In this document: positions 1 to 16,065 of the stretch, piece by piece | Layout of the letters: each line of letters begins with the position of its first letter | Position numbering within the stretch: the stretch's first letter is position 1 | Assembly (NCBI RefSeq): GCF_024213195.1 | Contig: NZ_JANAVF010000002.1 | Location: 620,001-684,000 of the forward strand | Reading direction: 5' to 3' | Origin: Streptomyces sp. TBY4 | GTDB taxonomy: Bacteria; Actinomycetota; Actinomycetes; Streptomycetales; Streptomycetaceae | DNA: 64,000 nucleotides | Position numbers and translations under genes: made by a program | Notes under the pieces: generated by a model | Database searches by the model: none | What the model saw: only the letters and a program-made list of their open reading frames with translations | What the model was told of the DNA's origin: nothing

Positions 1-2
1 GG

Positions 3-698
3 CACGAGACGGAGAAGTTCCTGAAGCTGGCCTTCCCCCTGGACGTGCACGCCGAGCGGTACGCCTCGGAAACCCAGTTCGGCCACTACCACCGGCCCAC
101 CCACACCAACACCTCCTGGGAAGCCGCCAAGTTCGAGGCGTGCAACCACCGCTTCGTCCACCTGGAGGAGCCGGACTGGGGCGTCGCGCTGGTGACGGAC
201 TCCACGTACGGGCACGACCTGACCCGCACCGTGCGCCCCTCGGACCGCGGCACCACCACCACGCTGCGCGCCTCGCTGCTGCGCGCCCCGCGCTTCCCCG
301 ACCCGGAGACCGACCAGGGCCTGCACCGCTTCCGGCACGCACTGGTGACCGGGGCCTCCATCGGGGACGCGGTCCGGGAGGGCTACCGGGTCAACCTCCC
401 GGAGCGGGAACTCCGGGGAGCCGCGCCGGTGGCGCCCCTGGTGTCGGTCTCCGACGACGGAGTCGTCGTCACCGCCGTCAAGCTCGCCGACGACGGCAGC
501 GGCGACGTGGTGGTCCGCTTCCACGAAGCACGCGGCGCCCGCGCCCGGGCCACCCTGTCGGCCGGATTCGCCGCCGCCTCGGTGACCCCGGTGGACCTGC
601 TGGAACGGCCGGTCGGCCCGGCGGAGCCGGTGGACGCCGCGATCCCTGTCGAGCTGCGCCCCTTCGAGCTGCGCACGCTCCGCTTCACCCGGGCCTGA
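3..698 (+). CDS. Alpha-mannosidase, GH38 family, C-terminal part (5' end outside window)
   Basis: The reading frame is already open at the window edge, so only about 231 C-terminal residues are visible. They match the C-terminal beta-sandwich of GH38 alpha-mannosidases: the segment reading FGHYHRPTHTNTSWEAAKFE and the later run of short beta strands ending in PFELRTLRFTRA are typical of the family's tail, where the protein closes with an 'elrPfElrTlr' strand. The catalytic domain lies upstream and cannot be checked. GH38 enzymes trim terminal alpha-mannosyl residues; bacterial ones are often cytoplasmic. The gene converges on a DeoR regulator gene and a large hairpin separates them, so it is probably not part of the operon to its right. 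Confidence 0.85.
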   Translation, partial: HETEKFLKLAFPLDVHAERYASETQFGHYHRPTHTNTSWEAAKFEACNHRFVHLEEPDWGVALVTDSTYGHDLTRTVRPSDRGTTTTLRASLLRAPRFPDPETDQGLHRFRHALVTGASIGDAVREGYRVNLPERELRGAAPVAPLVSVSDDGVVVTAVKLADDGSGDVVVRFHEARGARARATLSAGFAAASVTPVDLLERPVGPAEPVDAAIPVELRPFELRTLRFTRA

Positions 699-717
699 AC
701 GCCCCGGACCCTCGCAC

Positions 718-770
718 CGGACCGCCGGTGCCCGACTCCGCCGTCGCCGGAGCCGGGCACCGGCGGTCCG
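718..770. terminator. Bidirectional terminator hairpin between convergent genes
   Basis: Two perfectly complementary 17-nt arms (CGGACCGCCGGTGCCCG at 718-734 and its complement at 754-770) enclose a loop that itself contains a 5-bp pairing (CTCCG/CGGAG). There is no clear T tract on either side, as usual in streptomycetes. The position, between the mannosidase stop and the DeoR stop, fits a shared terminator. Confidence 0.75.
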
Positions 771-775
771 CGCGT

Positions 776-1633
776 TCAGGACCGGGCGACCACCACCACC
801 TGCGTGCCCCGCTCCCTGATGGCGCGGATCTCCCGCGCGCCGAGCCCGTCGTCCACCACCAGGAAGTCGAAGTCCGTGAGCGGGGCGAGCGCGTACAGCC
901 CCTCCTGCCGGAACTTCGTGTGGTCGGCCACCAGCACCCGGCACTTCGCGGCCCGCAGCATGGCCCGCTTGACCTGGACGGTCTCGGGCGAGGTGTTGTA
1001 GAGGCGCCCCCGGGTGATGGCGGTGGCCGACATGAACACGATGCCCGCGCTGTACTCGCGGATGCTGTCGGCGGTGTGCGGCCCCATGTGGGCCTCGTAC
1101 GCGGGGAAGTAGGTGCCGCCCAGCGAGATCAGCTGGACTCCGGGCTGCCGGGCGAGGCCCGTCATCGCCGGGAGCGAGTTCGTGATCACCGTCAGCGGCG
1201 CCGACTCCACGAAGTAACGCGTCATCTGCGCGCACGTCGTGCTGTCGTCGAGCATCACCGTCTGCCCGGGCGTGAGCAGTTGGGCCGCGGCCCGCGCGAG
1301 TCGCCGCTTGGTCGAGGCCATGGCCTCCGTACGGGCGGTGACGCTGCCGTGGAAGCGGGGCGAGGACTCGCTCGTCGCCCCGCCGCGCACCTTGCGCAGC
1401 CAGCCCTGGGCCTGGAGGTGGTCCAGATCCCGGTGGACGGTCATCAGGGAGACGTCGTGCACGGCCGCGAGATCGGCGGAGCGTACGAACCCCCGCGCGA
1501 GCGCCTCCTCCCGGATGAGCCGGCGCCGCTCCTCGCGGGCCTCGCAGCGGTCCTGAGCGGGAGCGGCCCCGTCGGGACCGCTCCCGTCGGTACCGCTCCC
1601 GGCCTCCTCCGCTGGAGCTGAACTCGGTGCCAT
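776..1633 (-). CDS. DeoR-family transcriptional regulator
   Basis: The 285-aa protein has the DeoR layout. After a poorly conserved Ala/Gly-rich N-terminus of about 30 residues there is a winged helix (residues ~35-90, with SADLAAVHDVSLMTVHRDLD and the wing KVRGGA), then the DeoR sensor domain with the phosphosugar-binding fold (TVMLDDSTTCAQM, ITNSLPAM, VQLISLGGTYF, LVADHTKF). DeoR proteins usually repress sugar or polyol catabolic operons and release DNA on binding a phosphorylated sugar. The start is supported by GAGGAGG a few bases upstream of the ATG. It is divergent from the MFS/kinase/RuBisCO operon and most likely controls it; its effector would be an intermediate of that pathway. That assignment is inference from position. 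Confidence 0.9.
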   Translation of the reverse strand: MAPSSAPAEEAGSGTDGSGPDGAAPAQDRCEAREERRRLIREEALARGFVRSADLAAVHDVSLMTVHRDLDHLQAQGWLRKVRGGATSESSPRFHGSVTARTEAMASTKRRLARAAAQLLTPGQTVMLDDSTTCAQMTRYFVESAPLTVITNSLPAMTGLARQPGVQLISLGGTYFPAYEAHMGPHTADSIREYSAGIVFMSATAITRGRLYNTSPETVQVKRAMLRAAKCRVLVADHTKFRQEGLYALAPLTDFDFLVVDDGLGAREIRAIRERGTQVVVVARS

Positions 1634-1648
1634 CCGCGCCCTCCTCGG

Positions 1649-1670
1649 GTGAAGTTCTCTGCTTCTTCAC
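1649..1670. promoter_or_regulatory. Candidate DeoR operator (inverted repeat)
   Basis: GTGAAG and CTTCAC arms are separated by 10 bp, giving a 22-bp inverted repeat just upstream of the deoR start codon. This geometry suits autoregulation by a dimer. I found no second exact copy in the divergent promoter region. Confidence 0.35.
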
Positions 1671-1763
1671 TCGATCCTCTGGTATCCCCGCAGGTCAGAC
1701 GGCGAGTCTTAAGTCCTTCTCACATGGGATACGGCCCCTTCCGAGGGAGATGTCCACAGGAAG

Positions 1764-1793
1764 TTGACGCCGGTTTCACCGGAATTGTTAGCT
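1764..1793 (+). promoter_or_regulatory. Candidate promoter and operator of the RuBisCO operon
   Basis: TTGACG at 1764-1769 is followed after 18 bp by TTAGCT (1788-1793), an acceptable vegetative promoter. The spacer contains an inverted repeat, CCGGT-TTC-ACCGG (1770-1782), where a bound repressor would block RNA polymerase. The transcript would carry a leader of roughly 130 nt before the MFS start codon. Confidence 0.4.
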
Positions 1794-1929
1794 CGTTCCT
1801 GCCAGGGTCACCCAGCACCGGACCGCCACCGCCGCCGGTCCGCAGACCCGCCTCCGCGGCCCCGCCGCCATCCACCCCACCGCATCCACTTCATCGCATC
1901 GACTCCATCGACGCCGATCGGGGACATCA

Positions 1930-3324
1930 ATGACGAAGACCCCCCAGCCCCTCGCGCACTGCGGAGAGGGCCCGCCCACCTCACGCCTCGCCCGCATGGG
2001 CATCCCGCAGTCCATATCCTCCGGCTACCTCGGCCTCGTCATCTTCATGACGGGCGTGGGCATCGAGGCCGGATACCTCTCGCCCTACCTGGAGGGCCTC
2101 GGCATCGCCGCCTCCGACGTGGCGATGATCTTCACCGTGTACGGGCTCACCGGCGCCGTCGCGGCCTGGCTCTCCGGAGCGCTCTCCGATCTGTGGGGCC
2201 CCCGCAAGGTCATGTGGTGCGGGCTGATCACCTTCGCGGTCACCCACGTCTTCTTCCTCGCGGTCGCGATCCCCTCCAAGGAGTACGGCCTCCTCCTCAT
2301 CGGCTACGCCCTGCGCGGCCTCGCCTTCCCGCTCTTCGCCTACGCCTTCCTCGTCTGGATCGCCGCGGTCGCCCCGCCCCGCCAGATGGGCAGCGCCATG
2401 GGCTGGTTCTGGTCGGCCTTCTCCGCGGGCCTGCCCACGCTGGGATCCCTCTGCGCGAGCCTCCTCATCCCGGTCATCGGCGAGTACGCCACCCTGTGGG
2501 TCGCCCTCGGCGTCGTCGCGGTCGGCGGCCTGCTGCCGCTGCTGCTCATCAAGGAGAAGACGGGATCCTCCCGCCTCGCCCCGCCCGGCGAGAGCCCGAT
2601 GGCCGGCCTGGTCGGCTCCCTGACGATCCTCTACCGCAACCCGCGCGTGGGCGCCGGCGCCGTCGTCCGCATGTTCAACACCGCCTCGCAGTTCGGCTTC
2701 ATGGTCATGCTGCCGGTCTGGTTCATGAACACGGTCGGCCTCAGCAACGAGCAGTGGCTGCGCCTGGTGGCCGTCATGTTCGGCACCAACATCGTCACCA
2801 ACCTCGCCTTCGGCGTCATCGGCGACCGCATCGGCTGGCGCACCACCGTCGCCTGGTGCGGCGGCGTCGGCTGCACGATCTCCTCCCTCCTCCTCTTCCA
2901 CGTGCCCGACGCGGTCGGCGGCGTCTACCCGGTGTGCCTGCTGGTCGCCGTGTTCTACGGGGCCACGCTCTCCGGCTACGTACCCCTCTCCGCGCTGATG
3001 ACGTCCATCGCCCCGAGCCACAAGGGCCAGGCCATGGCCGCCCTCAACCTCGGCGCCGGCGCCTCCGCCTTCCTCGGCCCGCTCACCGTCAGCCTCTTCC
3101 TCGGCCCGCTCGGGGTCGGCGGGGTCACCTGGATCTTCGCCGGGTTCCACGCGGTCAGCGCCCTCCTGATGCTGGTGATCAAGACGACCGGCAGCGGCGC
3201 GTCGCCGACGCCGCGCACGGCGGGCGCCCCGGAGGCTGCTGCGGAGGCCGACCCGAAGGCCGGGAACCTGCCGCACGCCGACCCCACCGAAAAGCTCCTC
3301 TCCCCGAACACGAAGGGACGGTGA
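1930..3324 (+). CDS. MFS transporter, polyol/pentose-permease type
   Basis: The 464-aa protein has twelve predicted membrane segments in two sets of six, with the MFS signature between TM2 and TM3 (SGALSDLWGPRKV) and its echo GVIGDRIGWRTT in the second half. The loop after TM6 and the C-terminal ~45 residues are hydrophilic. The layout resembles RbtT/DalT-type pentitol permeases, which sit beside DeoR regulators and FGGY kinases in known polyol operons; that resemblance is from memory of the family. As first gene of the operon it presumably imports the unphosphorylated sugar or polyol. It ends 6 bp before the first kinase. The substrate cannot be read from sequence. Confidence 0.88.
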   Translation: MTKTPQPLAHCGEGPPTSRLARMGIPQSISSGYLGLVIFMTGVGIEAGYLSPYLEGLGIAASDVAMIFTVYGLTGAVAAWLSGALSDLWGPRKVMWCGLITFAVTHVFFLAVAIPSKEYGLLLIGYALRGLAFPLFAYAFLVWIAAVAPPRQMGSAMGWFWSAFSAGLPTLGSLCASLLIPVIGEYATLWVALGVVAVGGLLPLLLIKEKTGSSRLAPPGESPMAGLVGSLTILYRNPRVGAGAVVRMFNTASQFGFMVMLPVWFMNTVGLSNEQWLRLVAVMFGTNIVTNLAFGVIGDRIGWRTTVAWCGGVGCTISSLLLFHVPDAVGGVYPVCLLVAVFYGATLSGYVPLSALMTSIAPSHKGQAMAALNLGAGASAFLGPLTVSLFLGPLGVGGVTWIFAGFHAVSALLMLVIKTTGSGASPTPRTAGAPEAAAEADPKAGNLPHADPTEKLLSPNTKGR

Positions 3325-3330
3325 CCCACG

Positions 3331-4878
3331 ATGTCCGTACTCGCCATCGACGTCGGCACCACCATGATCAAATCGGTCGTCTTCGACGACCAGGGCAACG
3401 AGCTGGCCGTCTCCCGGCTCGGCACCGAGGTCCTGCGCCGCCCCCCCGGCTGGGCCGAACAGGACATGGACACCGTGTGGAACACGGTCGTCTACACCGT
3501 CCGCAACGCCCTCTCCGACATCGACGACCCCGTCTGGCTCGTCACCTTCACCGCCCAGGGCGACGGCGCCTGGCTCATCGACCGGGAGGGGCGCCCCACC
3601 GGCCCCGCCATCCTGTGGTCCGACGGCCGCGCCGGGGACATCCTCACCGGCTGGGAGAGCGAAGGGCTCCTGGAAGAGGCCTTCCGCCGCAACGGCTCCC
3701 TCACGTGCAGCGGCATGCCGAACGCCGTCTTCAGCTGGCTCGGCTCCCACGACCCCCAGCGCCTGGCCGGATCGGCCGCCTCCCTGACCGCCGCGGGCTG
3801 GCTCTTCCTCAACCTCACCGGCACCGTCGCGACCGACGAGTCCGACGCCTCCGCACCCTTCCTCGACCACGCCACCGGCGACTACGACGACACCATCGTC
3901 GACCTCTTCGGCCTCGCCGCGCACCGCAGGCTGCTGCCGCGCGTCCTCGGGGAGGAGGAGCGGATCGCCGAGATCACCCCGCAGGCCGCCGGACAGCTCG
4001 GCCTGCCGGCCGGACTACCCGTGGTCATGGCCCCGTACGACATCGCCGCCACCGCCCGCGGCGTCGGGGTCGTCAACCCCGGCCAGGCGTGCACCATCCT
4101 CGGCACCACCCTCTGCACCGAGATCGTCCGCAAGGGCATCGACACCACCGGCGAGCCCTCCGGCATCAACATCGCCTACCGCGGCCGCGAGCGCGTCCTG
4201 CGGGCCTTCCCCACCTTCAACGGCGCCGAGGTCCTGGTCTGGGCGTCGAAACTGCTCGGCCTGGACGGCCCGCCCGATCTCACCCGGCTCGCCTTCGACT
4301 CCGTACCGGGAGCGAACGGCCTGAGCTTCCTGCCGTACCTCTCGCCCGCGGGGGAGCGGGCCCCCTTCCTCGATCCCGGCGCGCGCGGCACCTTCTGGGG
4401 GCTGTCCCTGGAACACTCGAACGCCGACGTGGCCCGCGCCGTCCTCGACGGGCTCTCCCTCGTCCTGCGCGACTCGCTGGTGGCCTCCCGTACGAACGTC
4501 ACCGAGCTGCGGCTGTGCGGCGGCGGGGCCAACAGCGACGACTGGTGCCAACTCATCGCCGACGTCACCGGAGTGCCCACGGCCCGCTCGGTGGACACCG
4601 AACTCGGCGCGAAGGGCGCCTTCCTGACGGGCCTGGTGCTCTCCGGCGCCGAATCCTCGATGCACTCGGCCGCCTCCCACTACGTCCGGATGACCTCCGG
4701 CTGGGAGCCGGACCCGGAGCGCGCCGACTTCTACGCGGCCCGCTACGGGGAGTTCCTGAACTGGCGCGGCCTCGTCCGCGAAGCGGGCTGGACCTGCGGC
4801 CCGGCGCCCCTCTCCCTCTCCCGCCCGACCACCCGCCCGACCCGCACCGGGGAACTCCAAGGAGCCGTACGTGCCTGA
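3331..4878 (+). CDS. FGGY-family carbohydrate kinase 1 (erythritol/pentulose-kinase-like)
   Basis: The 515-aa length is normal for FGGY kinases. The N-terminal phosphate-binding loop is DVGTTMIKSVVF (residues 7-18), the sugar-side segment includes VTFTAQGDGAWLID and the WSDGRA that follows, and the C-terminal nucleotide site has LCGGGANSDDWCQ (~395). The TAQGDGxWLID region is like that of erythritol kinase EryA and related polyol/ketose kinases rather than xylulokinase or glycerol kinase. It should phosphorylate a primary hydroxyl of an imported polyol or ketose with ATP. The start has a GGGACGG ribosome site, and the end overlaps the second kinase by 8 nt, so the two are translationally coupled. 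Two non-identical FGGY kinases in one operon is unusual and suggests successive phosphorylations or two substrates. Confidence 0.9.
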   Translation: MSVLAIDVGTTMIKSVVFDDQGNELAVSRLGTEVLRRPPGWAEQDMDTVWNTVVYTVRNALSDIDDPVWLVTFTAQGDGAWLIDREGRPTGPAILWSDGRAGDILTGWESEGLLEEAFRRNGSLTCSGMPNAVFSWLGSHDPQRLAGSAASLTAAGWLFLNLTGTVATDESDASAPFLDHATGDYDDTIVDLFGLAAHRRLLPRVLGEEERIAEITPQAAGQLGLPAGLPVVMAPYDIAATARGVGVVNPGQACTILGTTLCTEIVRKGIDTTGEPSGINIAYRGRERVLRAFPTFNGAEVLVWASKLLGLDGPPDLTRLAFDSVPGANGLSFLPYLSPAGERAPFLDPGARGTFWGLSLEHSNADVARAVLDGLSLVLRDSLVASRTNVTELRLCGGGANSDDWCQLIADVTGVPTARSVDTELGAKGAFLTGLVLSGAESSMHSAASHYVRMTSGWEPDPERADFYAARYGEFLNWRGLVREAGWTCGPAPLSLSRPTTRPTRTGELQGAVRA

Positions 4879-6421
4879 CCGCGCACCCGAACCCGGACCC
4901 GTTTCCCTGCCGCAGGACGCCGTCTGGCTCGGCCTCGACCTCGGTACGCAGTCCGCGCGCTGCCTCGCCGTCGACTCCGCCGGCCACGTCCTCGCCGCCG
5001 CCTCCCGCCCGCTGACCAGCCACCGCGACGGCAACCGCCACGAGCAGGACCCCGAGCAGTGGTGGAGCGCCCTCACCGGGGCCTGCCGCGAGGCCCTCGA
5101 CGGGATCGAGCCCCACCGCGTCCGGGGGCTCGCCCTCGACGGGACCTCCGGCACCATCCTGCTCGCGGGCCCCGACGGCACCCCGCTGACCCGCGGCCTC
5201 ATGTACGACGACGGGCGCGCCGCGGAGCAGGCCGTACGGGCCAACGAGGCCGGGGCGCGGGTCTGGCAGGAGCTCGGCTACCGCTCCATGCAGCCCTCCT
5301 GGGCCCTGCCCAAGCTCCTGTGGCTCCTGGAGAACGAACCGGCGGCGGCCGCCCCCGGGACCCGGCTGCTCCACCAGGTGGACCTCGTCACCTGGCGGCT
5401 GGCCGGCCGGCAGGTCGCCAGTGACGCCAGCCACGCCCTGAAGACGGGCTACCACCTCCTCGAGGAGCGCTGGCCGGAGAAGGAGTTCGCCGACCTGGGC
5501 GTCCCCGCCGGGCTCCTGCCCGAGGTCGTACGCCCCGGCGCCGTCATCGGCAGCGTCGGCCCCGAGGCGGCCGAGCTCACCGGCATCCCGGAGGGAACAC
5601 CGATCGTCGCCGGCATGACCGACGGCTGCGCCGCGCAGATCGGCGCGGGCGCCCTCGCCCCCGGCGCCTGGAACTCCGTGCTCGGCACCACCCTGGTCTT
5701 CAAGGGAGCCAGCCCGCACCTGGTCCGGGACCCCCACGGCGTCGTCTACTGCCACCGGGGCCCCGGCGACGCCTGGCTCCCCGGCGGGGCCTCCGGCAGC
5801 GGGGCCGGCGTGCTGTCCCGCGAGTTCCCGGGCGCGGACCTCGACCGGCTGACCGTCGAGGGCGCGGAGCTCGACCGCGACACCGTCGCCTACCCGCTGG
5901 TCTCCACCGGCGGCGAACGCTTCCCCTTCCGGGCACCGGACGCGCGGGGCTTCCTCCTCGCAGCGGGCGGGGAGGCCGGGGAGGCGGGCGAGCCCGGGGA
6001 GGCGGGGGAGGCCGAGCGCTTCCACGCGTACCTCCTCGGCGTCGCCTGCCTCGAACGCCTCTGCTTCGACTACCTCGACCTCCTCGGCGCCCCCGTCGAC
6101 GGCCCCCTCACCCTCACCGGCGGCGGCGCGCGCAACGCCTACTGGAGCAGGCTCCGCGCCGACGTCCTGGGCCGCCGGGTGCGCCTGCCGGAACACGCCG
6201 AGGGAGCCCTCGGCATGGCGGTGCTCGCCGCCACCTCCTCGGGTGCGTCCCTCCAGGACGCGGCGGCGGCCATGGTCCGCATCGAGCGGGAGATCGAGCC
6301 CGACCCCGCGCGGACCGCCCGCTGGCTCCCCGTCTACGTCTCCTTCGTGGAGGAGCTCGTCCGGCGCGGCTGGCTCGACCGGGCCGTGGCCGACCACGCG
6401 AGGGGAAGGGCCGCCCGGTGA
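4871..6421 (+). CDS. FGGY-family carbohydrate kinase 2 (D-ribulose-kinase-like)
   Basis: A 516-aa kinase of the same superfamily but clearly a different subfamily from its neighbour. It has the loop DLGTQSARCLAVD (~22-34), the segment LALDGTSGTILL (~87-98) followed by YDDGRA, and the C-terminal TGGGARNAYWSRL (~416). The DGTSGTxLL pattern recalls the D-ribulose kinases of cyanobacteria (SePSK) and plants (XK-1), known from memory, so D-ribulose to D-ribulose 5-phosphate is a reasonable first guess. A glycine/glutamate/alanine repeat (GEAGEAGEPGEAGEA, ~369-383) is inserted before the nucleotide domain; it is encoded by purine-rich short repeats and is probably a loop. The GTG start has AAGGAG upstream. 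Its stop overlaps the phosphatase start (GTGA). Confidence 0.88.
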   Translation: MPDRAPEPGPVSLPQDAVWLGLDLGTQSARCLAVDSAGHVLAAASRPLTSHRDGNRHEQDPEQWWSALTGACREALDGIEPHRVRGLALDGTSGTILLAGPDGTPLTRGLMYDDGRAAEQAVRANEAGARVWQELGYRSMQPSWALPKLLWLLENEPAAAAPGTRLLHQVDLVTWRLAGRQVASDASHALKTGYHLLEERWPEKEFADLGVPAGLLPEVVRPGAVIGSVGPEAAELTGIPEGTPIVAGMTDGCAAQIGAGALAPGAWNSVLGTTLVFKGASPHLVRDPHGVVYCHRGPGDAWLPGGASGSGAGVLSREFPGADLDRLTVEGAELDRDTVAYPLVSTGGERFPFRAPDARGFLLAAGGEAGEAGEPGEAGEAERFHAYLLGVACLERLCFDYLDLLGAPVDGPLTLTGGGARNAYWSRLRADVLGRRVRLPEHAEGALGMAVLAATSSGASLQDAAAAMVRIEREIEPDPARTARWLPVYVSFVEELVRRGWLDRAVADHARGRAAR

Positions 6422-7116
6422 CATCCGACCCGGTGAAAGCCGACCCGATGAAGGAGCACCCGGTGCAGGACCGCCCGACGACCGACTTCGTGCTGGTGCG
6501 CCACGGCGAGACCGTGTGGCACGCCGAGAACCGTTATGCGGGCCGCGCCGACGTCGCGCTGACCGAGCGCGGCCTGCGACAGGCCGATGAACTCGCTGAC
6601 TGGGCCCGCGGGCAGCGCTTCGACGCGGTGCTGCACTCCCCGCTCGCCCGGGCCCGCCTCACGGCCGCACCCGCCGCCCGCTCCCTGGGCATCGCACCCC
6701 GCGAGGACGCCCGCCTCTACGAGATCGACTTCGGCGAGGGCGAGGGGCTGAGCCTGGCGGAGATGCGCGCACGCTTCCCCCAGGAGCACGCGGCCTTCCT
6801 CCGCGACCCGGTCGCCCACCACCTCCCCGGCGGGGAGGACCCCCGCCGGGCGGCGGCCCGGGCCCGGGCCTGCCTGGAGGAGACGGCCCGCACCCTCCCC
6901 GGCGGGCGCGTGCTCGTGGTCGGGCACAACGCGCTCTTCCGGGTCCTGCTCTGCGACCTGCTGGGCATCGAACTCGGCGCGTACCGGCAGGTGTTCCCCG
7001 TCCTCGACAACGCCACCACCACCGAGATCCGCCTCTCCGGGGCCACCGGAGACGGCCGGGCGGCGCTGCTGTCCTTCAACGCCCCGACGCGGACGGGGGA
7101 TCCGGCTCCGCGATGA
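6418..7116 (+). CDS. Histidine phosphatase family protein
   Basis: The 232-aa protein carries the complete histidine phosphatase core: LVRHGET with the nucleophilic His (~residue 28), the Arg of SPLARARLTA, the general-acid Glu region YEIDFGEGEGLSLAE, and the second His in VGHNALFRVLL. The short, insertion-free form and the GEGEGL motif are closer to broad phosphatases (PhoE/CobC-like) than to glycolytic phosphoglycerate mutases. In this operon a substrate such as 2-phosphoglycolate, 3-phosphoglycerate or a sugar phosphate would make sense; this is inference. The GTG start overlaps the kinase stop and has GGGAAGG upstream; ATG at 6448 is an alternative start that would still keep the whole domain. 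Confidence 0.85.
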   Translation: MTSDPVKADPMKEHPVQDRPTTDFVLVRHGETVWHAENRYAGRADVALTERGLRQADELADWARGQRFDAVLHSPLARARLTAAPAARSLGIAPREDARLYEIDFGEGEGLSLAEMRARFPQEHAAFLRDPVAHHLPGGEDPRRAAARARACLEETARTLPGGRVLVVGHNALFRVLLCDLLGIELGAYRQVFPVLDNATTTEIRLSGATGDGRAALLSFNAPTRTGDPAPR

Positions 7117-7187
7117 CCCGTACCCCCGCATCCGTACCCGTACCCGCCCCGACCGCACCGCACCCCGCTCCCGAAGGAACCCGCCCG

Positions 7188-8234
7188 ATGAACACCAAGG
7201 TCCTCGCCGCAGGCGACCACTTCGTCCTCCCGCACCTGCTGACCGAAGAGGTCCGCCGGGCGAGCGACGGCGCCTGCGAGGTATCCGAGATCCAACTGCC
7301 GTGGCCCCACACTCCCTTCGGCCCGGTCGCCGAAGTCGTCGAGGCCTCCGGCACCGAAGAGGAGATGATCGAGGCGCTCCAGGGCGCCGAGGTCTGCGTC
7401 ACGCAGCTCGCCCCGCTCACCGAGCGCATCCTGGCCGCGTGCCCCGACCTGAAGCTGATGTGCATCAGCCGGGGCGGACCGGTCAACGCCAACCTGGAAG
7501 CGGCCACCCGCCACGGAGTGGCGGTCTGCTACGCCCCCGGCCGCAACGCGGTCGCCACTGCCGAGCACACCCTGACCCTGCTGCTGGCCGCCGCCCGCGG
7601 GGTCGGCGACACCCATGCCGACATGCGCCGCGGAGTGTGGCGGGGCGACTACTACGACTACGACAACTGCGGGATCGAGATCGAGGGGGCCACGGTCGGC
7701 CTGATCGGCTACGGGGCCATCGGCTCCCGCGTCGCCAAGGTGCTCGTCGCGATGGGCGCCGAAGTCCTGGTCCACGACCCGTACGTGAAGCCCGACCTGG
7801 TCGCGGGCATCGCCGAACTCGTCGGTCTGGACACCCTGCTGACCCGTTCCCGGATCGTCTCCCTGCACGCCCGCGTCACCGAGGAGACCACGGGCATGAT
7901 CGGAGCCGAGCAGATCGCGATGATGCCCCGGGGCTCCGTGCTCGTGAACTGCGCCCGGGGCGCCCTCCTCGACTACGAGGCCGTCTGCGACGCCATCGAC
8001 TCCGGGCAGCTCGCCGGAGCCGGATTCGACGTCTTCCCGGTCGAGCCCGTACCGGCCGGCTCCAGGCTGCTCACCACCCCCGGCATCGTCATGACCCCGC
8101 ACATCGCGGGCGGCAGCCAGCAGGTCGCCCACAAGGCCGCCCGGATCGTGGCCGGCGAGGTCGGCCGCTACCTGCGCGGCGAGCCCCTCGCCCACTGCGC
8201 GAACCCCGAGGTCTTCGGGACCGCCGCGTCCTGA
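7188..8234 (+). CDS. D-isomer-specific 2-hydroxyacid dehydrogenase (SerA/hydroxypyruvate-reductase family)
   Basis: I place the start at the ATG with GAAGGA nine bases upstream, giving 348 aa; an upstream in-frame ATG would add a Pro-rich, unconserved 25-residue tail. The protein has the NAD-binding site GLIGYGAIGSRVAKVL (~170-185) and the family's catalytic triad: Arg in NCARGALLD (~253-261), Glu in DVFPVEP and His in TPHIAGGSQQ (~302-311). TPHIAG differs slightly from the TPHLG of classical 3-phosphoglycerate dehydrogenase, and the regulatory ACT domain is missing. It would oxidise or reduce a 2-hydroxyacid such as glycerate/hydroxypyruvate, glycolate/glyoxylate or 3-phosphoglycerate, all of which lie around a RuBisCO product. 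The exact substrate is unknown. Confidence 0.88.
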   Translation: MNTKVLAAGDHFVLPHLLTEEVRRASDGACEVSEIQLPWPHTPFGPVAEVVEASGTEEEMIEALQGAEVCVTQLAPLTERILAACPDLKLMCISRGGPVNANLEAATRHGVAVCYAPGRNAVATAEHTLTLLLAAARGVGDTHADMRRGVWRGDYYDYDNCGIEIEGATVGLIGYGAIGSRVAKVLVAMGAEVLVHDPYVKPDLVAGIAELVGLDTLLTRSRIVSLHARVTEETTGMIGAEQIAMMPRGSVLVNCARGALLDYEAVCDAIDSGQLAGAGFDVFPVEPVPAGSRLLTTPGIVMTPHIAGGSQQVAHKAARIVAGEVGRYLRGEPLAHCANPEVFGTAAS

Positions 8235-8294
8235 CCGCACACGGCCGCCCCACCCTCCTCCATTCCTCCCCCCACGCACTCTGGAGATCGAACC

Positions 8295-9677
8295 ATGGAC
8301 CAGTCGAACCGCTACGCGAACCTCGCCCTCAGGGAAGAGGCCCTGATCGAGGGCGGCCGCCACGTGCTGTGCGCCTACACCATGAAGCCCAAGGCGGGGT
8401 ACGGCGACTACCTCTCCACCGCCGCCCACTTCGCCGCGGAGTCCTCGACCGGAACCAACGTCGAGGTGTGCACCACCGACGAGTTCACCAAGGGGGTCGA
8501 CGCCCTGGTCTACGAGATCGACGAGGCCCGGGAGCTCATGAAGATCGCCTACCCGGTCGACCTCTTCGACCGCAACATCATCGACGGCCGGGCGATGATC
8601 GCCTCCTTCCTCACCCTGACCATCGGCAACAACCAGGGCATGGGCGACGTCGAGTACGCCAAGATGCTCGACTTCTACGTACCGCCGGCCTACCTGCGGC
8701 TGTTCGACGGCCCGACGATGAACATCCAGGACATGTGGCGCGTCCTGGACCGCCCGGTCGTCGACGGCGGCATGGTCGTCGGCACCATCATCAAGCCCAA
8801 GCTGGGCCTGCGCCCCCAGCCGTTCGCGGACGCCTGCCACCAGTTCTGGCTGGGCGGCGACTTCATCAAGAACGACGAGCCGCAGGGCAACCAGGTCTTC
8901 GCGCCGCTGAAGGAGACGATGAAGGCCGTCGCCGACGCGATGCGCCGCGCCCAGGACGCCACCGGGGAGGCGAAGCTCTTCTCCGCCAACATCACCGCCG
9001 ACGACCCGGCCGAGATGGTCGCGCGCGGCGAGTACATCCTGGAGACCTTCGCGGAGAACGCCGACCACGTGGCCTTCCTGGTCGACGGCTACGTCGCCGG
9101 CCCGACCGCCGTCACCACCGCCCGGCGCAACTTCCCCGGCCAGTTCCTCCACTTCCACCGGGCCGGCCACGGCGCCGTGACCAGCCCGCAGTCCCGGCGG
9201 GGCTACACCTCCTTCGTGCACTGCAAGATGACCCGCCTGCAGGGCGCCTCCGGCATGCACACCGGCACCATGGGCTACGGAAAGATGGAGGGGGACACCG
9301 CCGACAAGGCCATCGCCTTCATGCTGGAGCAGGACACCGCCGACGGCCCCTTCTACCGTCAGGAATGGCTGGGCATGAAGCCCACCACCCCGATCATCTC
9401 GGGCGGCATGAACGCCCTGCGCCTCCCCGGGTTCTTCGACAACCTGGGCCACTCCAACGTCATCCAGACCTCCGGCGGCGGCGCCTTCGGCCACCGGGAC
9501 GGAGGCACGGCGGGCGCCAAGTCCCTGCGCCAGGCGCAGGACGCCTGGCAGCAGGGCATCAAGCTGGTGGAGTACGCCAAGGACCACCCGGAACTCAAGG
9601 GCGCCTTCGCGTCCTTCACCGCCGACGCGGACCGGCTCTACCCGGGCTGGCGCGACGAGCTCGGGACCGGAGCGTAG
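8295..9677 (+). CDS. cbbM: Ribulose-1,5-bisphosphate carboxylase/oxygenase, Form II
   Basis: This 460-aa protein follows the Rhodospirillum rubrum Form II enzyme almost end to end, with a one-residue offset. Catalytic residues are present: Glu49, Thr54 and Asn55 (ESSTGTN), Asn112 (GNNQGMG), Lys167 and Lys169 ([10 protein letters not shown]), the carbamylated Lys192 with Asp194 and Glu195 ([13 protein letters not shown]), His288 and Arg289 (FHRAGHG), loop-6 Lys330 (GYGKMEG), Ser369 (ISGGMNA) and the phosphate loop Gly394-Gly395 (SGGGAFGH). RuBisCO-like proteins lose several of these, so genuine carboxylase/oxygenase activity is expected. No small subunit is needed. The gene is last in the operon, 60 bp after the dehydrogenase, with GGAG before the ATG, and a terminator follows. 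There is no phosphoribulokinase nearby, so its role in autotrophy is doubtful; a sugar-salvage role fits better. Confidence 0.96.
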
Positions 9678-9688
9678 AAACGCCGGAA

Positions 9689-9721
9689 CCGGCCCTCCCC
9701 CCGCATCGGGGGGAGGGCCGG
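9689..9721. terminator. Strong terminator after the RuBisCO gene
   Basis: A perfect 14-bp stem (CCGGCCCTCCCCCC at 9689-9702, complement at 9708-9721) with a 5-nt loop lies 11 bp after the cbbM stop and 24 bp before the convergent cellulase stop. It probably serves both genes. Confidence 0.85.
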
Positions 9722-9745
9722 CGTCGTTCGGGGGTGGTGCGGGGG

Positions 9746-11239
9746 TCAGCTCGTGGGGAAGTTGTCGGCGGTGCGGATCCGGTCACGGATCCAGACGCCG
9801 GCCGGCTTCAGGGACGAGGTCCCGGTCCACGGGCCGTTGCTGTTGCAGGTGCCCTCCTTGAAGACGGCGCCGCTGCGGTTGTCGTCGGAGAAGTTCCAGT
9901 TGGTCCAGCTGATCTTCTTGGCGGCCATCAGGTCCAGGTACTTCTGCGTCATGGCGAAGTCGTTGGCGCCCTCACCCGCGTAGTTCTGGGTGCCGAACTC
10001 GGTGACGAACACCGGGATCCGGTCGGCGGCGCGGGACAGGGTGTCCAGGTACTCCTCGCGGTGCGAGAACGCGTAGAAGTGGAAGGTGTACATGATGTTG
10101 GAGGCGTTGACCTGGTTGTTCACGACCTCGGTCTCGTCGCCGCCCTCCGAGACCCCGAAGGAGGACCAGGCGCGCGTCCCGACCAGCACCGGGGCGTTGG
10201 AGTCGATGCCGCGGATCACCGGGATGATCTGCTCGGCGTAGGACTTCACCTTGGCCCAGGTCACCCCGCTGGGCTCGTTGGCGATCTCGTAGAGGACGTT
10301 GCTCTTGTCCTTGTGGCGGTTGGCGATGGCCGTGAAGAAGGTCTTGGCCTTGGAGAGGTTGGCGTTGGGGTCGCCCGGGTCGAGCATGTGCCAGTCCACG
10401 ATCACGTACATGCCGCGGGCGGTGGCCTGTTCGATGAGTGAGTGGGCGAGGTCGGTGAACTTCTGCGGGTCGGTCTCGTAGCCCTCCTCCTGGACGTACG
10501 TGGAGACGCGCAGGATGTCGGCGTTCCAGTCCTTGGCGAGGGCGTCGAGCGAGCCGGAGGTGAGGCACTGGGCGTACCACTGGGTTCCGTGGGTGCTCAT
10601 GCCGCGCAACTGGATGGGCTTGCCGTACTGGTTGCAGAGCTTGGTGCCGCAGACCGTGAGCTGGCCGTTGACGGCGACCGGGGTGCTGCCCGTGGGCGGG
10701 GTGGTCGTCCCCGTGTCCACCGACAGGTGGTCGACGTTGGGCCCGCCGTTGGAGGTGGTGGCGGTGGCCCGGATGGTGTTTGCGCCCGCCTTGAGGTTCG
10801 CGGTCAGGGCGGTGGTGGCCCAATTGGTCCACGCGCCCGTGCCGTTGAAGGCCTTGTTGGTGGCGACGACGGTGCCGTTGACCGTCAGGGTCATGGGCCG
10901 GTTGGTGGTGGTGCCGTTGGCGTACCGGAGGGTGAGTCCGGCACTGCCGGCGGCGGCCGCGTTCACCGTCCACTCGACATAACTACCGTTGAGGTTGTCG
11001 TAGTTGACGAATCCACTGCCGGTGAAACCGGAGTGGTTGGATTCTACGAGGCCCTGCGAGATGCGGGCGCTCTCGGCCTCGTGGGTGACGGCGGCGGCAG
11101 AGGTGGCAGCCGAGGTGGGGGCGGGGCTGCCGGCGGTGGGGGCGGCTATGCCGGGTGCGCCGGCCAGGCCGACGAGCAGGCTGCCGGTGAGGGTTCCGGC
11201 GGCGGCGAGGGTGCGCAACCGGAAGCGTGGGGGTCTCAA
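9746..11239 (-). CDS. Secreted CBM35/CBM6-like plus GH5 endoglucanase (cellulase)
   Basis: The 497-aa precursor starts with a signal peptide (basic RPPRFRLR, hydrophobic core, Ala-rich cleavage region ~30-45). Residues ~52-175 form a carbohydrate-binding beta-sandwich of the CBM35/CBM6 type (HEAESARISQG, SGFVNYDNLNGSYVEW, ending VDHLSVD). After a short Thr/Pro linker comes a GH5 domain (~190-490) with the acid/base Glu322 in YEIANEPSG and the nucleophile Glu414 in FVTEFGTQ, plus VIVDWHMLDPGDPN typical of subfamily 2 endoglucanases. It should cut beta-1,4-glucan outside the cell. The start is TTG with GGAGA upstream; the nearby ATG is out of frame. It is transcribed divergently from the beta-helix gene. 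Confidence 0.92.
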   Translation of the reverse strand: MRPPRFRLRTLAAAGTLTGSLLVGLAGAPGIAAPTAGSPAPTSAATSAAAVTHEAESARISQGLVESNHSGFTGSGFVNYDNLNGSYVEWTVNAAAAGSAGLTLRYANGTTTNRPMTLTVNGTVVATNKAFNGTGAWTNWATTALTANLKAGANTIRATATTSNGGPNVDHLSVDTGTTTPPTGSTPVAVNGQLTVCGTKLCNQYGKPIQLRGMSTHGTQWYAQCLTSGSLDALAKDWNADILRVSTYVQEEGYETDPQKFTDLAHSLIEQATARGMYVIVDWHMLDPGDPNANLSKAKTFFTAIANRHKDKSNVLYEIANEPSGVTWAKVKSYAEQIIPVIRGIDSNAPVLVGTRAWSSFGVSEGGDETEVVNNQVNASNIMYTFHFYAFSHREEYLDTLSRAADRIPVFVTEFGTQNYAGEGANDFAMTQKYLDLMAAKKISWTNWNFSDDNRSGAVFKEGTCNSNGPWTGTSSLKPAGVWIRDRIRTADNFPTS

Positions 11240-11271
11240 GACGTCTCCATCCCGTTGACGATCCTGCGATC

Positions 11272-11290
11272 GTAAGGAAAGTTTCCTAAC
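11272..11290. promoter_or_regulatory. Palindrome upstream of the cellulase gene (candidate operator)
   Basis: GGAAA-G-TTTCC, extended outwards to GTnAGGAAAGTTTCCTnAC, pairs at 8 of 9 positions on each side of a central base. It lies about 35-50 bp upstream of the cellulase TTG start. The symmetry and the position suit a repressor operator, but I cannot name the protein. Confidence 0.45.
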
Positions 11291-11345
11291 GGCATGGAAT
11301 GGAATATCAGCCTCCCGCGATCCACCACAAGAGTCTTGCGCTCAA

Positions 11346-11359
11346 TCCACATATGTGGA
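11346..11359. promoter_or_regulatory. Perfect palindrome TCCACATATGTGGA (candidate IclR operator)
   Basis: This 14-bp palindrome is upstream of the beta-helix gene. A near copy (12 of 14 bases, TCCACATATCTAGA) lies in front of the uronate ABC operon next to the IclR gene. IclR proteins bind short palindromes of this kind, so the pair probably marks one regulon. Confidence 0.6.
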
Positions 11360-11461
11360 CTGGAAATTGATGAAGAGACAGTCATTGACCGACTGGACGT
11401 CTGCCAGCACGATGTAGCGCGGCTCACCTCCCCAACTCCCCCCACCACCGCAGGAGGAACG

Positions 11462-13786
11462 TTGTCCGCACGATGGAGAACCGCCGCCGCATGCGGCGGC
11501 GCCACGGCCCTGCTCATGGCCTCCGGCGTCGCCCTCGGCTCCCTGGACGGCGGCGCTCAAGCCGCCGTCCCCACCGCCTCCGCCGCTGTGACCGGCGGCC
11601 TCGACCTGTCCCAGGGCAACCGGCGCACCCCGGTCAGCGGGCTCTACGACTGGTCCAAGGCCGGCTACCGGGGCGGCGCCGATCTGCCCGGCCCGGGACA
11701 GGCGAACCCCGACGCCGCCTGCCAGATCACCCCCACGGAACTGGCCGGCCTCGGCGTCACCCCGAACGACGGAGCCGACGACTCGGCCGGACTCCAGGCG
11801 GCGATCGACCAGATCCGCACCAACTGCTCGCCGGGAGCCGGGCACGGCAAACTGTCGCTGATCACTCTCCCCGCCGGGGTCCTCGACGTGAGCCGGCAGA
11901 TCTCGGTCGACGCCGACTACCTCGTCCTGCGGGGCGCGGGCAGCGGCGCCGGCGGCACCCGGTTCGTGTTCCGGCCCGACGCCAACACCCGCTACGACGC
12001 GCTCACTCCGGACGGTTCCGACTGGGACGAGGACGGCATGACCGCCGGCTCGGCCAAGGGCGGATGGATCTGGCCCGGCCGCGGGCTCTTCCGTGTCCAG
12101 TCCCGCGGTGTGCACTCCGCCTACGCCTCCGAGTACGCGGCCGCCCCCGCCAACCGCAAGGACCTCTTCGAGGGCACCGTCAACGTGCACTGGAAGGCCG
12201 GGCTGAAGCTCCGCGACAAGGCCGGCGACACCGGCTTCGCGGCCCGCGCCGGGGACAAGGTCGTGCACCTGGCCTCCTCGGGGGCGCTGGGCGCCTTCCA
12301 GCCGGGCGGCCTCGTCAACATCCGGGCGGCGAACACGCTGAAGTTCTACGCCCAGCAGGACGTCCAGCCCGCCGACGGCACGCTCCAGAACATCCACATG
12401 CGCCAGCAGATCTTCACCGTGGCGGCCGTGGACACCGCCAACCGCACGCTGACCCTGGACAAGCCGCTGGAGTTCGACGTCCCGGTGAGCTCCACCTCGG
12501 ACGGCTCGGCGCCGATCGCCGGCGCGGTCTACGACTCCAAGGCCGCCCCGCTCGTCGACCCGGTCCTGGGCGTCGGCTTCGAGGGCTTCGCGCTCACCCA
12601 CGAGATCCCCGGACTCGCCGCGGCGGACGCGAAGTTCAACTACGGCAACATGGCGCCGGCCGAGGAGATGCACGGCATCGTCTTCAAATGGGCCGCCGAC
12701 TCCTGGGTCCGGGGCATCCGGACGGAGATGACCGGGTCCCACCCGATCGTCACCGAGGAGGCCTACCGCCTCCAGATCGTCGACAACCAGCTCGACGGAT
12801 CGTGGAACAAGGGCAAGGGCGGCAACGGGTACTTCCGCGGCTCGCGCGTCTGGGACTCCCTCTACGCGGGCAACACCTCACGCAACCTGCGCCACTTCAC
12901 CTTCCAGTGGTCGGCCTCCGGGAACGTGGTCATCGGGAACGACTTCGATTCCGACCTCAACCTGCACGGCGGCTGGGAGCGCAACAACCTCTTCGAGAAC
13001 AACACGGTGACCGTGCCCTACGACCACCGCTCCGGCAACTGCCGGGCGAACTGCGGCGAGGAGGGCGGCGGCGGCCCCGACGCCTCCACCTGGTACCCGA
13101 TCTGGTGGGGCGCGGGCAAGAAGGCGGTGAAGTGGTCCGGCTCCTCCGGCCCGCGCAACGTCTTCTTCAACAACGCCATGAGCAAGCAGACAGCGGCGGG
13201 CGCGGGCTACACCCCGTACTACTCCGACGCGGGCCGGATCTACCAGTTCGGCTGGAGCGGCACGGCGTGGAAGCACCTCGACCAGGGCGGCACGGCGATC
13301 CCCGACTGGGCCGGCCGTGAACGGCTCGACTACACCGGCGGCCACGGAGTGGACGCCACCAGGACGGACACCGGAGCCTCGCTCTTCCTGAAGTCCCTGA
13401 CGGGAGGGCCTACGCCCACGCCCACGCCCACACCGACGCCCACCCCCACCCCGACACCGACCTCCTCGCCGACCACCCCGCCGCCGGCCGGCTGCCTGAC
13501 CGTGCGGACCGTCCGGACCAACGCCTGGAGCAGTGGCTACGGCATGGACGTGTTCGTCAAGAACGACTGCGACACCGCGGTCGCGGGCTGGAAGGTCGAG
13601 TTCACCCTGCCCTCCGGCACCACCGTGTCCAGCCACTGGTCGGCGAACAAGACGCAGAGCGGCCAGCGGTACGGATTCACCAACGTGGCGTGGAACGGCG
13701 CCATCCCCGCGGGCCAGGAGAAGGGCTTCGGATTCAACGCGGCCGGGCTCGGCCTGCCCACCCAACTCACCGTCGTCCGCCAGTAG
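11462..13786 (+). CDS. Secreted right-handed beta-helix protein with C-terminal CBM2 (pectate-lyase-like)
   Basis: I start at the TTG preceded by AGGAGGAAC; this gives 774 aa with a signal peptide (~1-36, cleavage near GGAQA-AVP). Residues ~80-640 look like a parallel beta-helix: LITLPAGVLDVSRQI and the next strand LVLRGAGSG, then repeated Asn/Gly-rich turns such as VIGNDFDSDLNLHGGWERNN and FENNTVTVPYD. This fold is used by pectate lyases, polygalacturonases and GH55 glucanases; I cannot pick the active-site residues or the reaction. A Pro-Thr linker joins it to a CBM2 (~675-774: WSSGYGMDVFVKND, GTTVSSHWSANKTQSGQ, GFGFNAAG), which binds cellulose. With the uronate operon nearby, pectin attack is the likeliest job. 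A second CBM2/beta-helix gene follows 16 bp later. Confidence 0.82.
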   Translation: MSARWRTAAACGGATALLMASGVALGSLDGGAQAAVPTASAAVTGGLDLSQGNRRTPVSGLYDWSKAGYRGGADLPGPGQANPDAACQITPTELAGLGVTPNDGADDSAGLQAAIDQIRTNCSPGAGHGKLSLITLPAGVLDVSRQISVDADYLVLRGAGSGAGGTRFVFRPDANTRYDALTPDGSDWDEDGMTAGSAKGGWIWPGRGLFRVQSRGVHSAYASEYAAAPANRKDLFEGTVNVHWKAGLKLRDKAGDTGFAARAGDKVVHLASSGALGAFQPGGLVNIRAANTLKFYAQQDVQPADGTLQNIHMRQQIFTVAAVDTANRTLTLDKPLEFDVPVSSTSDGSAPIAGAVYDSKAAPLVDPVLGVGFEGFALTHEIPGLAAADAKFNYGNMAPAEEMHGIVFKWAADSWVRGIRTEMTGSHPIVTEEAYRLQIVDNQLDGSWNKGKGGNGYFRGSRVWDSLYAGNTSRNLRHFTFQWSASGNVVIGNDFDSDLNLHGGWERNNLFENNTVTVPYDHRSGNCRANCGEEGGGGPDASTWYPIWWGAGKKAVKWSGSSGPRNVFFNNAMSKQTAAGAGYTPYYSDAGRIYQFGWSGTAWKHLDQGGTAIPDWAGRERLDYTGGHGVDATRTDTGASLFLKSLTGGPTPTPTPTPTPTPTPTPTSSPTTPPPAGCLTVRTVRTNAWSSGYGMDVFVKNDCDTAVAGWKVEFTLPSGTTVSSHWSANKTQSGQRYGFTNVAWNGAIPAGQEKGFGFNAAGLGLPTQLTVVRQ
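13409..13462 (+). repeat. Pro-Thr linker repeat in the beta-helix-CBM2 gene
   Basis: A degenerate 6-bp repeat (CCNACN) encodes (PT)n between the catalytic domain and CBM2. It is the usual glycosylatable spacer of streptomycete cellulases; length is likely to vary between strains. Confidence 0.9.
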
Positions 13787-13802
13787 GAAGCGAGCCGAAC
13801 AC

Positions 13803-15275: not shown

Positions 15276-15285
15276 GGGTGACGGT

Positions 15286-16065
15286 TCATCTGATGCCGTG
15301 ACGGCGCAGCGTGTTCGCGAGGGCGGTGGCATGGGAAACGACCGCCTTCGCGACGCGCTCGGTCTCCGCCTCGGTTGCTGCCTCCACCGGCATCGAGCAG
15401 CTGATGGCGTCCGAGGCGGGGATCCGGTAGTGGACGGGCGCCGACAGGCAGGCCACTCCCGGGGTGCCCTGCTCGCGTTCCAGGGCCCAGCCCCGGTCCC
15501 GTACCAGGGCCAGCTCGGCGTACAGCGCGGCGCGGTCGGTGACCGTGTTCGGGGTGAATGCCTCCAGGTGGGCGGGCAGTACCGCGTCCACCTCCTCGGT
15601 GGTGAGGTCGGAGAGCAACGCCTGTCCCAGCGCGGTCAGATGGGCCGGCAGCCGGCGGCCGACCCGGGAGATGGCGCGGACGTTGTCGCGTGCCTCGCGG
15701 CTGGCGAGGTAGAGGACGTACGCGTCGTCGCGGCGGGCGAAGTGGACGGTGTAGCCCGTCTCCTCGCGGAGGTCCTCCATCACCGCGTGCGCGTACGGCA
15801 GCGCGGGGTCGCGGTCGAGGTAGGCGGTGCCGGAGAGCAGTGCGTGCGGGCCGACGCCGAAGGCGGAGCCGCTGTCGTCCGCCTCCACCCACTTGAGCTC
15901 GCGCAGGGTCCGCACGAGCGCGTGCAGGCTGCTGCGCGGGTACCCGAGGCGGTCCTGGAGCTCGGACACCGTGAGTTTCTCGGGGGAGGAGGCAAGTGCC
16001 TCCAGGATGCGCACGGTTCGCTCGGCGGACTTGACCGTCGCGACGTCGGGCGTGACTCCGGGCAT
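15286..16065 (-). CDS. IclR-family transcriptional regulator
   Basis: The start is the ATG five bases after GGAGGA, giving 259 aa; longer in-frame starts would run into the divergent promoter. Residues ~10-70 form the IclR winged helix (VKSAERTVRILEAL, TVSELQDRLGYPRSSLHALVRTL) and ~80-255 the effector-binding domain (TGYTVHFARRDDAYVLYL, GRRLPAHLTALGQALLSDL, GVACLSAPV, MPVEAA near the C-terminus). IclR proteins commonly govern aromatic-acid and uronate or pectin breakdown (for example KdgR). It converges on the beta-helix gene with a 10-bp gap and is divergent from the ABC/uronate operon, which it very likely controls through the palindrome at 16155. Confidence 0.92.
   Translation of the reverse strand: MPGVTPDVATVKSAERTVRILEALASSPEKLTVSELQDRLGYPRSSLHALVRTLRELKWVEADDSGSAFGVGPHALLSGTAYLDRDPALPYAHAVMEDLREETGYTVHFARRDDAYVLYLASREARDNVRAISRVGRRLPAHLTALGQALLSDLTTEEVDAVLPAHLEAFTPNTVTDRAALYAELALVRDRGWALEREQGTPGVACLSAPVHYRIPASDAISCSMPVEAATEAETERVAKAVVSHATALANTLRRHGIR

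Follow-up and report, generated by a model that had tools for sequence, protein, structure and literature searches.

The pentose bisphosphate pathway of Thermococcales consists of AMP phosphorylase, ribose 1,5-bisphosphate (R15P) isomerase and a Form III ribulose 1,5-bisphosphate carboxylase/oxygenase (RuBisCO). In Bacillus subtilis, the 2-hydroxyacid dehydrogenase YoaD and the FGGY kinase YoaC form another related pair; to our knowledge, yoaDC is not accompanied by a second FGGY kinase, a histidine phosphatase or RuBisCO. According to the available text of one study, YoaD is guessed to make glycerate and YoaC to phosphorylate it (PMC2885750). A haloarchaeal non-carboxylating pentose bisphosphate pathway forms ribulose 1,5-bisphosphate (RuBP) without phosphoribulokinase (PRK), in a branch that the available text describes without RuBisCO (PMC9700705). 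The D-ribulose locus Rbl of Citrobacter rodentium combines a transporter and one FGGY kinase for a ketopentose with an isomerase, and the available text describes no second kinase, phosphatase, dehydrogenase or RuBisCO there (PMC12307932). A survey of strains with Calvin-cycle genes lists, in its accessible part, three Actinomycetota species with Form II RuBisCO and reads them as transfers from Pseudomonadota; Streptomyces is not mentioned anywhere in its text (PMC12999727). Here we analyse a 64,000-nucleotide stretch of the Streptomyces sp. TBY4 genome (the window), in which positions 1930-9677 form one tight operon of six genes for a permease, two FGGY kinases (K1 and K2), a histidine phosphatase (HP), a D-2-hydroxyacid dehydrogenase (DH) and a Form II RuBisCO. 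We tentatively propose that the two kinases convert an imported pentulose or pentitol to RuBP, and that the RuBisCO, probably derived from Pseudomonadota and standing last in an older operon, carboxylates RuBP to two 3-phosphoglycerate without PRK. This we infer by exclusion, from sequence comparisons.

Like the Thermococcales pathway, the proposed route would lead a pentose into 3-phosphoglycerate through a PRK-less RuBisCO, but with Form II instead of Form III, with FGGY kinases, and with no AMP phosphorylase or R15P isomerase scoring above the cut-offs of their models. It would share with the haloarchaeal pathway a route to RuBP other than PRK, and the phosphatase exit of that pathway resembles the role suggested here for HP, whereas RuBisCO distinguishes the two. 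The transporter and the FGGY kinase for a ketopentose recall Rbl, which differs in having one kinase and an isomerase. With the Calvin cycle of Pseudomonadota that use Form II (cbbM), the locus has the RuBisCO itself in common, at up to 85% identity, but it lies in a sugar operon with no other cbb gene, in a genome with no PRK above the cut-off. If the proposal is true, the locus would be a bacterial variant, with Form II and FGGY kinases, of the archaeal PRK-less route; its kinases would be a third natural source of RuBP beside PRK and R15P isomerase, and its RuBisCO a PRK-independent Form II enzyme of an aerobic bacterium. No paper combining RuBisCO, Streptomyces, FGGY and kinase was found among the open-licence papers of PubMed Central. 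In a wider form, which we regard as possible but rather doubtful, K1, K2, HP and DH constitute an unrecognised actinomycete pentulose bisphosphate pathway that makes RuBP with two FGGY kinases and without PRK, into which a proteobacterial RuBisCO was plugged in one Streptomyces clade, giving a CO2-fixing sugar salvage.

A sequence-only reading of the window had described a DeoR regulator and the six-gene operon, with a Form II RuBisCO and uptake and kinase genes of a sugar or polyol type. All seven genes stand at the positions it gave, and its assignments are borne out by the two FGGY kinases and by the permease and RuBisCO models (Table 1). The nearest solved structures of the RuBisCO are Form II enzymes; the form is stated in one PDB entry only, and the remaining ones we take to be Form II as well. 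All 15 catalytic and substrate positions checked are kept (K166, K191, D193, E194, H287, R288, H321, K329, S368 and others; offset +1 to what we take to be Rhodospirillum rubrum numbering). Judged by these features, the protein is an intact, genuine Form II enzyme, for which carboxylase activity is predicted. In comparisons of the window with three other Streptomyces, the ratio of nonsynonymous to synonymous substitution rates (dN/dS) was 0.146-0.193 for the RuBisCO and higher, 0.198-0.300, for the kinases, showing that the RuBisCO is under purifying selection. Within its own clade it shows 88-96% identity to the remaining rows, and named Pseudomonadota enzymes reach at most 85%.

A search of 392 Streptomyces genomes gave three with Form II RuBisCO, and a sample of 293 genomes of the order gave one more (G512). 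The RuBisCO gene directly follows the DH gene in all four genomes found by this search and, in the four loci measured, starts 45-69 bp after it with a GGAG-type leader. The gene order including RuBisCO is repeated in three further loci (L003, L123 and L124) with 65-93% protein identity, a recurrence far beyond chance. Five more sets of protein records, in which RuBisCO and one or both kinases lie on contigs of matching size (200632, 56670, 41050, 32878 and 17340), suggest the same linkage. In a sample of the phylum, 87 of 396 genomes had some RuBisCO-family match, and besides the window's the only ones with more than 36% identity were two short fragments (75 residues at 45% and 79 at 40%). Two other settings were looked for and rejected. 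Among 80 related genome loci with Form II genes, of which 44 span at least 15 kb and many have short flanks, relatives of K1, K2 and the permease stood only at L003. As for plasmid-borne copies, the protein search matched 348 plasmid records; four from Cereibacter lead with 82-83%, the other 344 stay below 60%, and the 15 matches listed include no Streptomyces. L003, L123 and L124 have flanking families in common (cl7 and cl8 upstream, cl12 downstream), and cl7 and cl8 also precede the RuBisCO-less loci L158 and L163. In the window genome, about 9.8 kb on the upstream side and 7 kb on the downstream side contained no relative of cl7, cl8, cl12 or cl13. Since the unit of the window thus stands among different neighbours, it has changed place with the RuBisCO attached.

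For the supply of RuBP, we searched four RuBisCO-bearing genomes, the window's own and those of three relatives. The absence of PRK from the window, for which the sequence-only reading had proposed a genome search, holds for these genomes: none exceeded the cut-off of 236 bits set for the PRK model NF005655 (highest score 34.7; one of the 14 control genomes passed), so this model does not indicate a Calvin cycle. The two PRK-family (PF00485) matches in the window genome were rejected as PRK. One is a pantothenate kinase (452 bits with TIGR00554, whose cut-off is 235); the other, encoded some 80 kb away from the operon, resembles uridine kinases and exceeds none of the listed cut-offs. AMP phosphorylase (TIGR03327) was not found above its cut-off in these four genomes or in one RuBisCO-less genome (best 224 bits, cut-off 535; 3 of 14 control genomes above it), nor was the ribose-1,5-bisphosphokinase PhnN in the four. 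Their five PF01008 proteins were rejected as R15P isomerases: all five score as MtnA (313-410 bits against a cut-off of 279) and reach 122-140 bits with the R15P isomerase model (cut-off 314). One of the four genomes, G283, is in just 4 contigs, so a missed supplier gene is unlikely there. One MtnA-type protein of G283, its second (L187, 958-2469, minus strand), is fused to a phosphoribosyltransferase domain (PF01008 214 bits, PF00156 49 bits).

RuBisCO acts on RuBP, the searches revealed no known supplier, and in four of four genomes the operon ends with the RuBisCO gene. Taken together, this is read most simply as an operon that already makes RuBP or a precursor of it. We consider it rather unlikely that RuBP comes from elsewhere, through an unrecognised PRK-like activity or side reactions such as that of MtnA on R15P, with the RuBisCO gene placed in the operon because pentose phosphate, and hence RuBP, rises on this sugar. 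One or two MtnA proteins in each RuBisCO-bearing genome and the uridine-kinase-like protein mentioned above could provide such an activity, but the former score as normal methionine-salvage enzymes, no dedicated supplier exceeded its cut-off, and the constant position of the RuBisCO gene would be left unexplained.

All 27 other actinomycete loci examined contain K1, K2 and HP together, and 26 of them DH; none has RuBisCO (L156-L175 and L195-L201). Of 199 Streptomyces genomes sampled, 15, including the window's own, have K1 with at least 61% identity, and 11 more have it with 49-51%; the 20 Streptomyces loci examined comprise all 14 others of the former group and 6 of the latter. The seven further loci, four of which represent four other genera, are from a class-wide search that matched K1 with E 1e-110 or better in 8 of 325 genomes, own included. 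K1, K2, HP and DH form a conserved actinomycete cassette, whose transporter is either a polyol-type MFS permease or a sugar ABC importer: in the distant locus L172, an ABC importer with a Peripla_BP_4 binding protein replaces the permease, and genes related to this importer by clustering stand in several other loci. No named pathway for the cassette was found in Pfam, NCBIfam or the literature; the strict substrate of the RuBisCO points to one of its intermediates.

In a tree of K1 and K2 (24 rows; a long-branch warning concerned one row, L171, outside this question), the RuBisCO-bearing operons formed one clade (98/97) inside the RuBisCO-less ones. For RuBisCO, a tree was built from 45 rows selected among the proteins found. 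In it, the Streptomyces sequences stood together (92/97, not starred) within mostly Pseudomonadota sequences, on a branch of eight Streptomyces rows and two of other records. The RuBisCO therefore joined a pre-existing pathway, and its source was likely in Pseudomonadota. Since the closest rows outside the branch are environmental proteins, the exact donor is not pinned; one Actinobacteria metagenome-assembled genome (L039, 78%) and one of a spirochaete (L021) stand among the Pseudomonadota rows. The two trees disagree within Streptomyces, L003 being paired with L124 by the kinases (100/100) and L123 with L124 by RuBisCO (95/89), so RuBisCO or the whole unit may have moved between Streptomyces. 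Most simply, RuBisCO would have been gained once, with later exchange indicated by the placement of L124.

The kinases seem to have changed little in the RuBisCO-bearing clade, which fits a bisphosphate intermediate older than RuBisCO: on verified loci, seven positions in K1 and one in K2 were fixed and private to the clade, counted without a control clade, and an earlier count on protein rows taken regardless of RuBisCO status gave none in either. The nested clade and the 27 RuBisCO-less loci rule out that the kinase pair evolved for RuBisCO, and here the sequence-only reading, which had seen a route built on paired kinases for RuBisCO, has to be revised: RuBisCO is the later addition, in one clade. 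Its suggestion of a sugar salvage stands insofar as neither PRK nor any alternative supplier searched exceeded a cut-off and SePSK is the nearest solved relative of K2, but not in that the kinases and the phosphatase were assembled for RuBisCO. Because the genus has related operons that carry RuBisCO and others that lack it (K1 61-84% identical), it offers a natural experiment on what RuBisCO contributes to the sugar catabolism of a heterotroph.

What the two kinases might phosphorylate was examined by sequence and structure comparison. K2 keeps the DGTSGT motif of SePSK and the equivalents of D8, T11, K163 and D221, with S12 and S222 changed, and by sequence relation and active-site residues it belongs with SePSK-type D-ribulokinases. 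Neither K1 (222 bits) nor K2 (179 bits) reaches the cut-off of 380 of the xylulokinase equivalog TIGR01312, and in K1 Q76-G77-D78-G79 replaces QMHG of E. coli xylulokinase, its nearest solved relative. The predicted structures of K1 and K2 (mean predicted local distance difference test scores 88 and 86) showed the general FGGY fold only, with xylulose, gluconate and glycerol kinases as the top matches. A short tandem repeat within K2 (5966-6014) encodes an insert rich in Gly, Glu and Ala that is not in the majority consensus of 21 K2 sequences. For SePSK of Synechococcus, D-ribulose kinase activity was suggested by ATP-hydrolysis assays (available text of PMC4880283). L-Fuculokinase and rhamnulokinase of the FGGY family phosphorylate C1, according to the accessible part of PMC3245297, so a pair of FGGY kinases acting at C1 and C5 is chemically plausible.

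The pathway could then run as follows. The RbtT/DalT-type permease, assigned to its family by score, would import the sugar, presumably a pentulose or pentitol, under DeoR control. K2 would phosphorylate D-ribulose, probably at C5, judging from its nearest solved relative. K1 would add the second phosphate at C1 of ribulose 5-phosphate, or would first make ribulose 1-phosphate; this is the weakest step. RuBisCO, given its intact active site, would carboxylate RuBP, and 3-phosphoglycerate would pass to lower glycolysis, with the older exit through HP and DH persisting as a non-carboxylating branch.

Several points weigh against this scheme. The kinase pair is present in all 27 RuBisCO-less loci and therefore has another purpose, so it need not make RuBP. 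K1 and K2 may also act in parallel on two different sugars, RuBP then coming from another enzyme. Both proteins are under every curated kinase cut-off listed, so substrate predictions, above all for K1, are tentative. The FGGY kinases known to us act on free sugars or polyols, and we know of none that acts on sugar phosphates. The absence of PRK rests on known models. Finally, no pentitol dehydrogenase is among the operon genes, so either D-ribulose itself or a dehydrogenase encoded elsewhere would be needed.

RuBisCO-family proteins stand beside FGGY kinases in other Actinomycetota, too. We examined loci from 24 of the 86 other RuBisCO-family genomes of the phylum sample, picked mostly from one class of matches. 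An FGGY kinase gene lay within 800 bp on the same strand in 19 of 24, and at one more locus (L207) it was in pieces and more distant. All 20 kinase-paired proteins carry K168C, R288M, H321V and K329A, and the four kinase-less ones do not. The kinase-paired proteins are RuBisCO-like and not RuBisCO; the pairing of an FGGY kinase with a RuBisCO-family enzyme, as they show, arose more than once. This clade comprises L202-L218 and L220-L222, from Actinomycetota genomes such as G820, G654 and G665; one RuBisCO-like protein scanned scored 378 bits, below the MtnW-type cut-off of 409, and a TetR gene precedes the pair in L202 and L203, the two loci with genes listed. Such pairs, though RuBisCO-like with a changed active site, together with an ancestral K1-K2-HP-DH pathway that is older than RuBisCO and for which no name was found, give some room to the idea that the captured RuBisCO acts on another intermediate of that pathway (another ketose bisphosphate, or by an enolase- or isomerase-type reaction) and does not carboxylate RuBP. 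We regard this as unlikely, since all RuBP-site residues checked are unaltered and the identities within the clade and to named Pseudomonadota enzymes reveal no change of substrate.

It is still less probable that HP and DH now serve oxygenase salvage, HP dephosphorylating 2-phosphoglycolate and DH processing glyoxylate, which would allow an O2-sensitive Form II enzyme to operate in an aerobe; such a role could complement the supply of RuBP by the kinases proposed above. Both genes adjoin RuBisCO, DH belongs to the group of glyoxylate/hydroxypyruvate reductases and 3-phosphoglycerate dehydrogenases, and five HP positions are private to the four RuBisCO-bearing rows versus one in a control clade, whose seven rows lower its count. 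However, the presence of HP in 27 and DH in 26 of the 27 RuBisCO-less loci means that neither was recruited for salvage. That the RuBisCO is a recent passenger without a role is very improbable, for its rarity and a synonymous divergence (dS) of 0.27-0.36, below the 0.43-0.59 of K1 as for a younger or more mobile gene, are set against its low dN/dS, intact active site, own ribosome-binding-site-like leader and constant place in four loci.

The features of the operon are given in Table 1. The distances between its genes are, in order, +6, -8, -4, -4 and +60 bp, and no ACT domain was found among the Pfam domains of DH. The promoter-like motif upstream of the permease gene occurs in 11 of 13 distinct divergent regions between DeoR and permease genes, one identical duplicate (L125) being left out; a sigma-70 consensus scan did not pick it out. 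Within 1600-9800, no terminator-like site was found on the plus strand and two on the minus strand, with 1.4 expected. Since an S-adenosylmethionine riboswitch precedes B. subtilis yoaDCB, we also scanned 1-16000 with Rfam; there were no matches, which rules out a riboswitch upstream of the operon.

Table 1 Features of the RuBisCO operon and its upstream region in the window
Feature	Position	Strand	Evidence
DeoR/GlpR-type sugar repressor, divergent from the operon	776..1633	-	PF00455 DeoRC 149 bits, PF08220 HTH_DeoR 40 bits
Promoter-like conserved motif TTGAC-N6-TT-N10-GTT, upstream of the permease gene	1764..1789	+	predicted from conservation
MFS permease, RbtT/DalT/CsbX polyol-type	1930..3324	+	TIGR00897 500.6 bits, cut-off 375
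FGGY kinase K1, xylulokinase-like fold	3331..4878	+	PF00370/PF02782; nearest PDB sequence E. coli XylB 2itm, 169 bits
FGGY kinase K2, SePSK-like, predicted D-ribulokinase	4871..6421	+	nearest PDB sequence 5htn SePSK, 155 bits
Histidine phosphatase (branch 1) HP	6418..7116	+	PF00300 178 bits; nearest PDB sequence phosphoserine phosphatase 1, 87 bits
D-2-hydroxyacid dehydrogenase DH, 3-phosphoglycerate-dehydrogenase-like	7113..8234	+	PF02826/PF00389 only; nearest PDB sequence 1wwk, 165 bits
Form II RuBisCO large chain	8295..9677	+	NF010002 871.7 bits, cut-off 489

The genome comprises 8.47 Mb in 61 contigs, and the window lies on contig 26. Upstream, a frame at 45-698 matches a glycosyl hydrolase family 38 enzyme in its C-terminal domains only. 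Directly downstream of the operon, 9746-15275 holds genes for proteins predicted to be carbohydrate-active, namely a GH5 cellulase with a CBM35/CBM6-like module and two CBM2 proteins, one of them with a beta-helix. A proline- and threonine-rich linker in a CBM2 protein is encoded by a tandem repeat of 12, 18 and 30 bases at 14211-14292.

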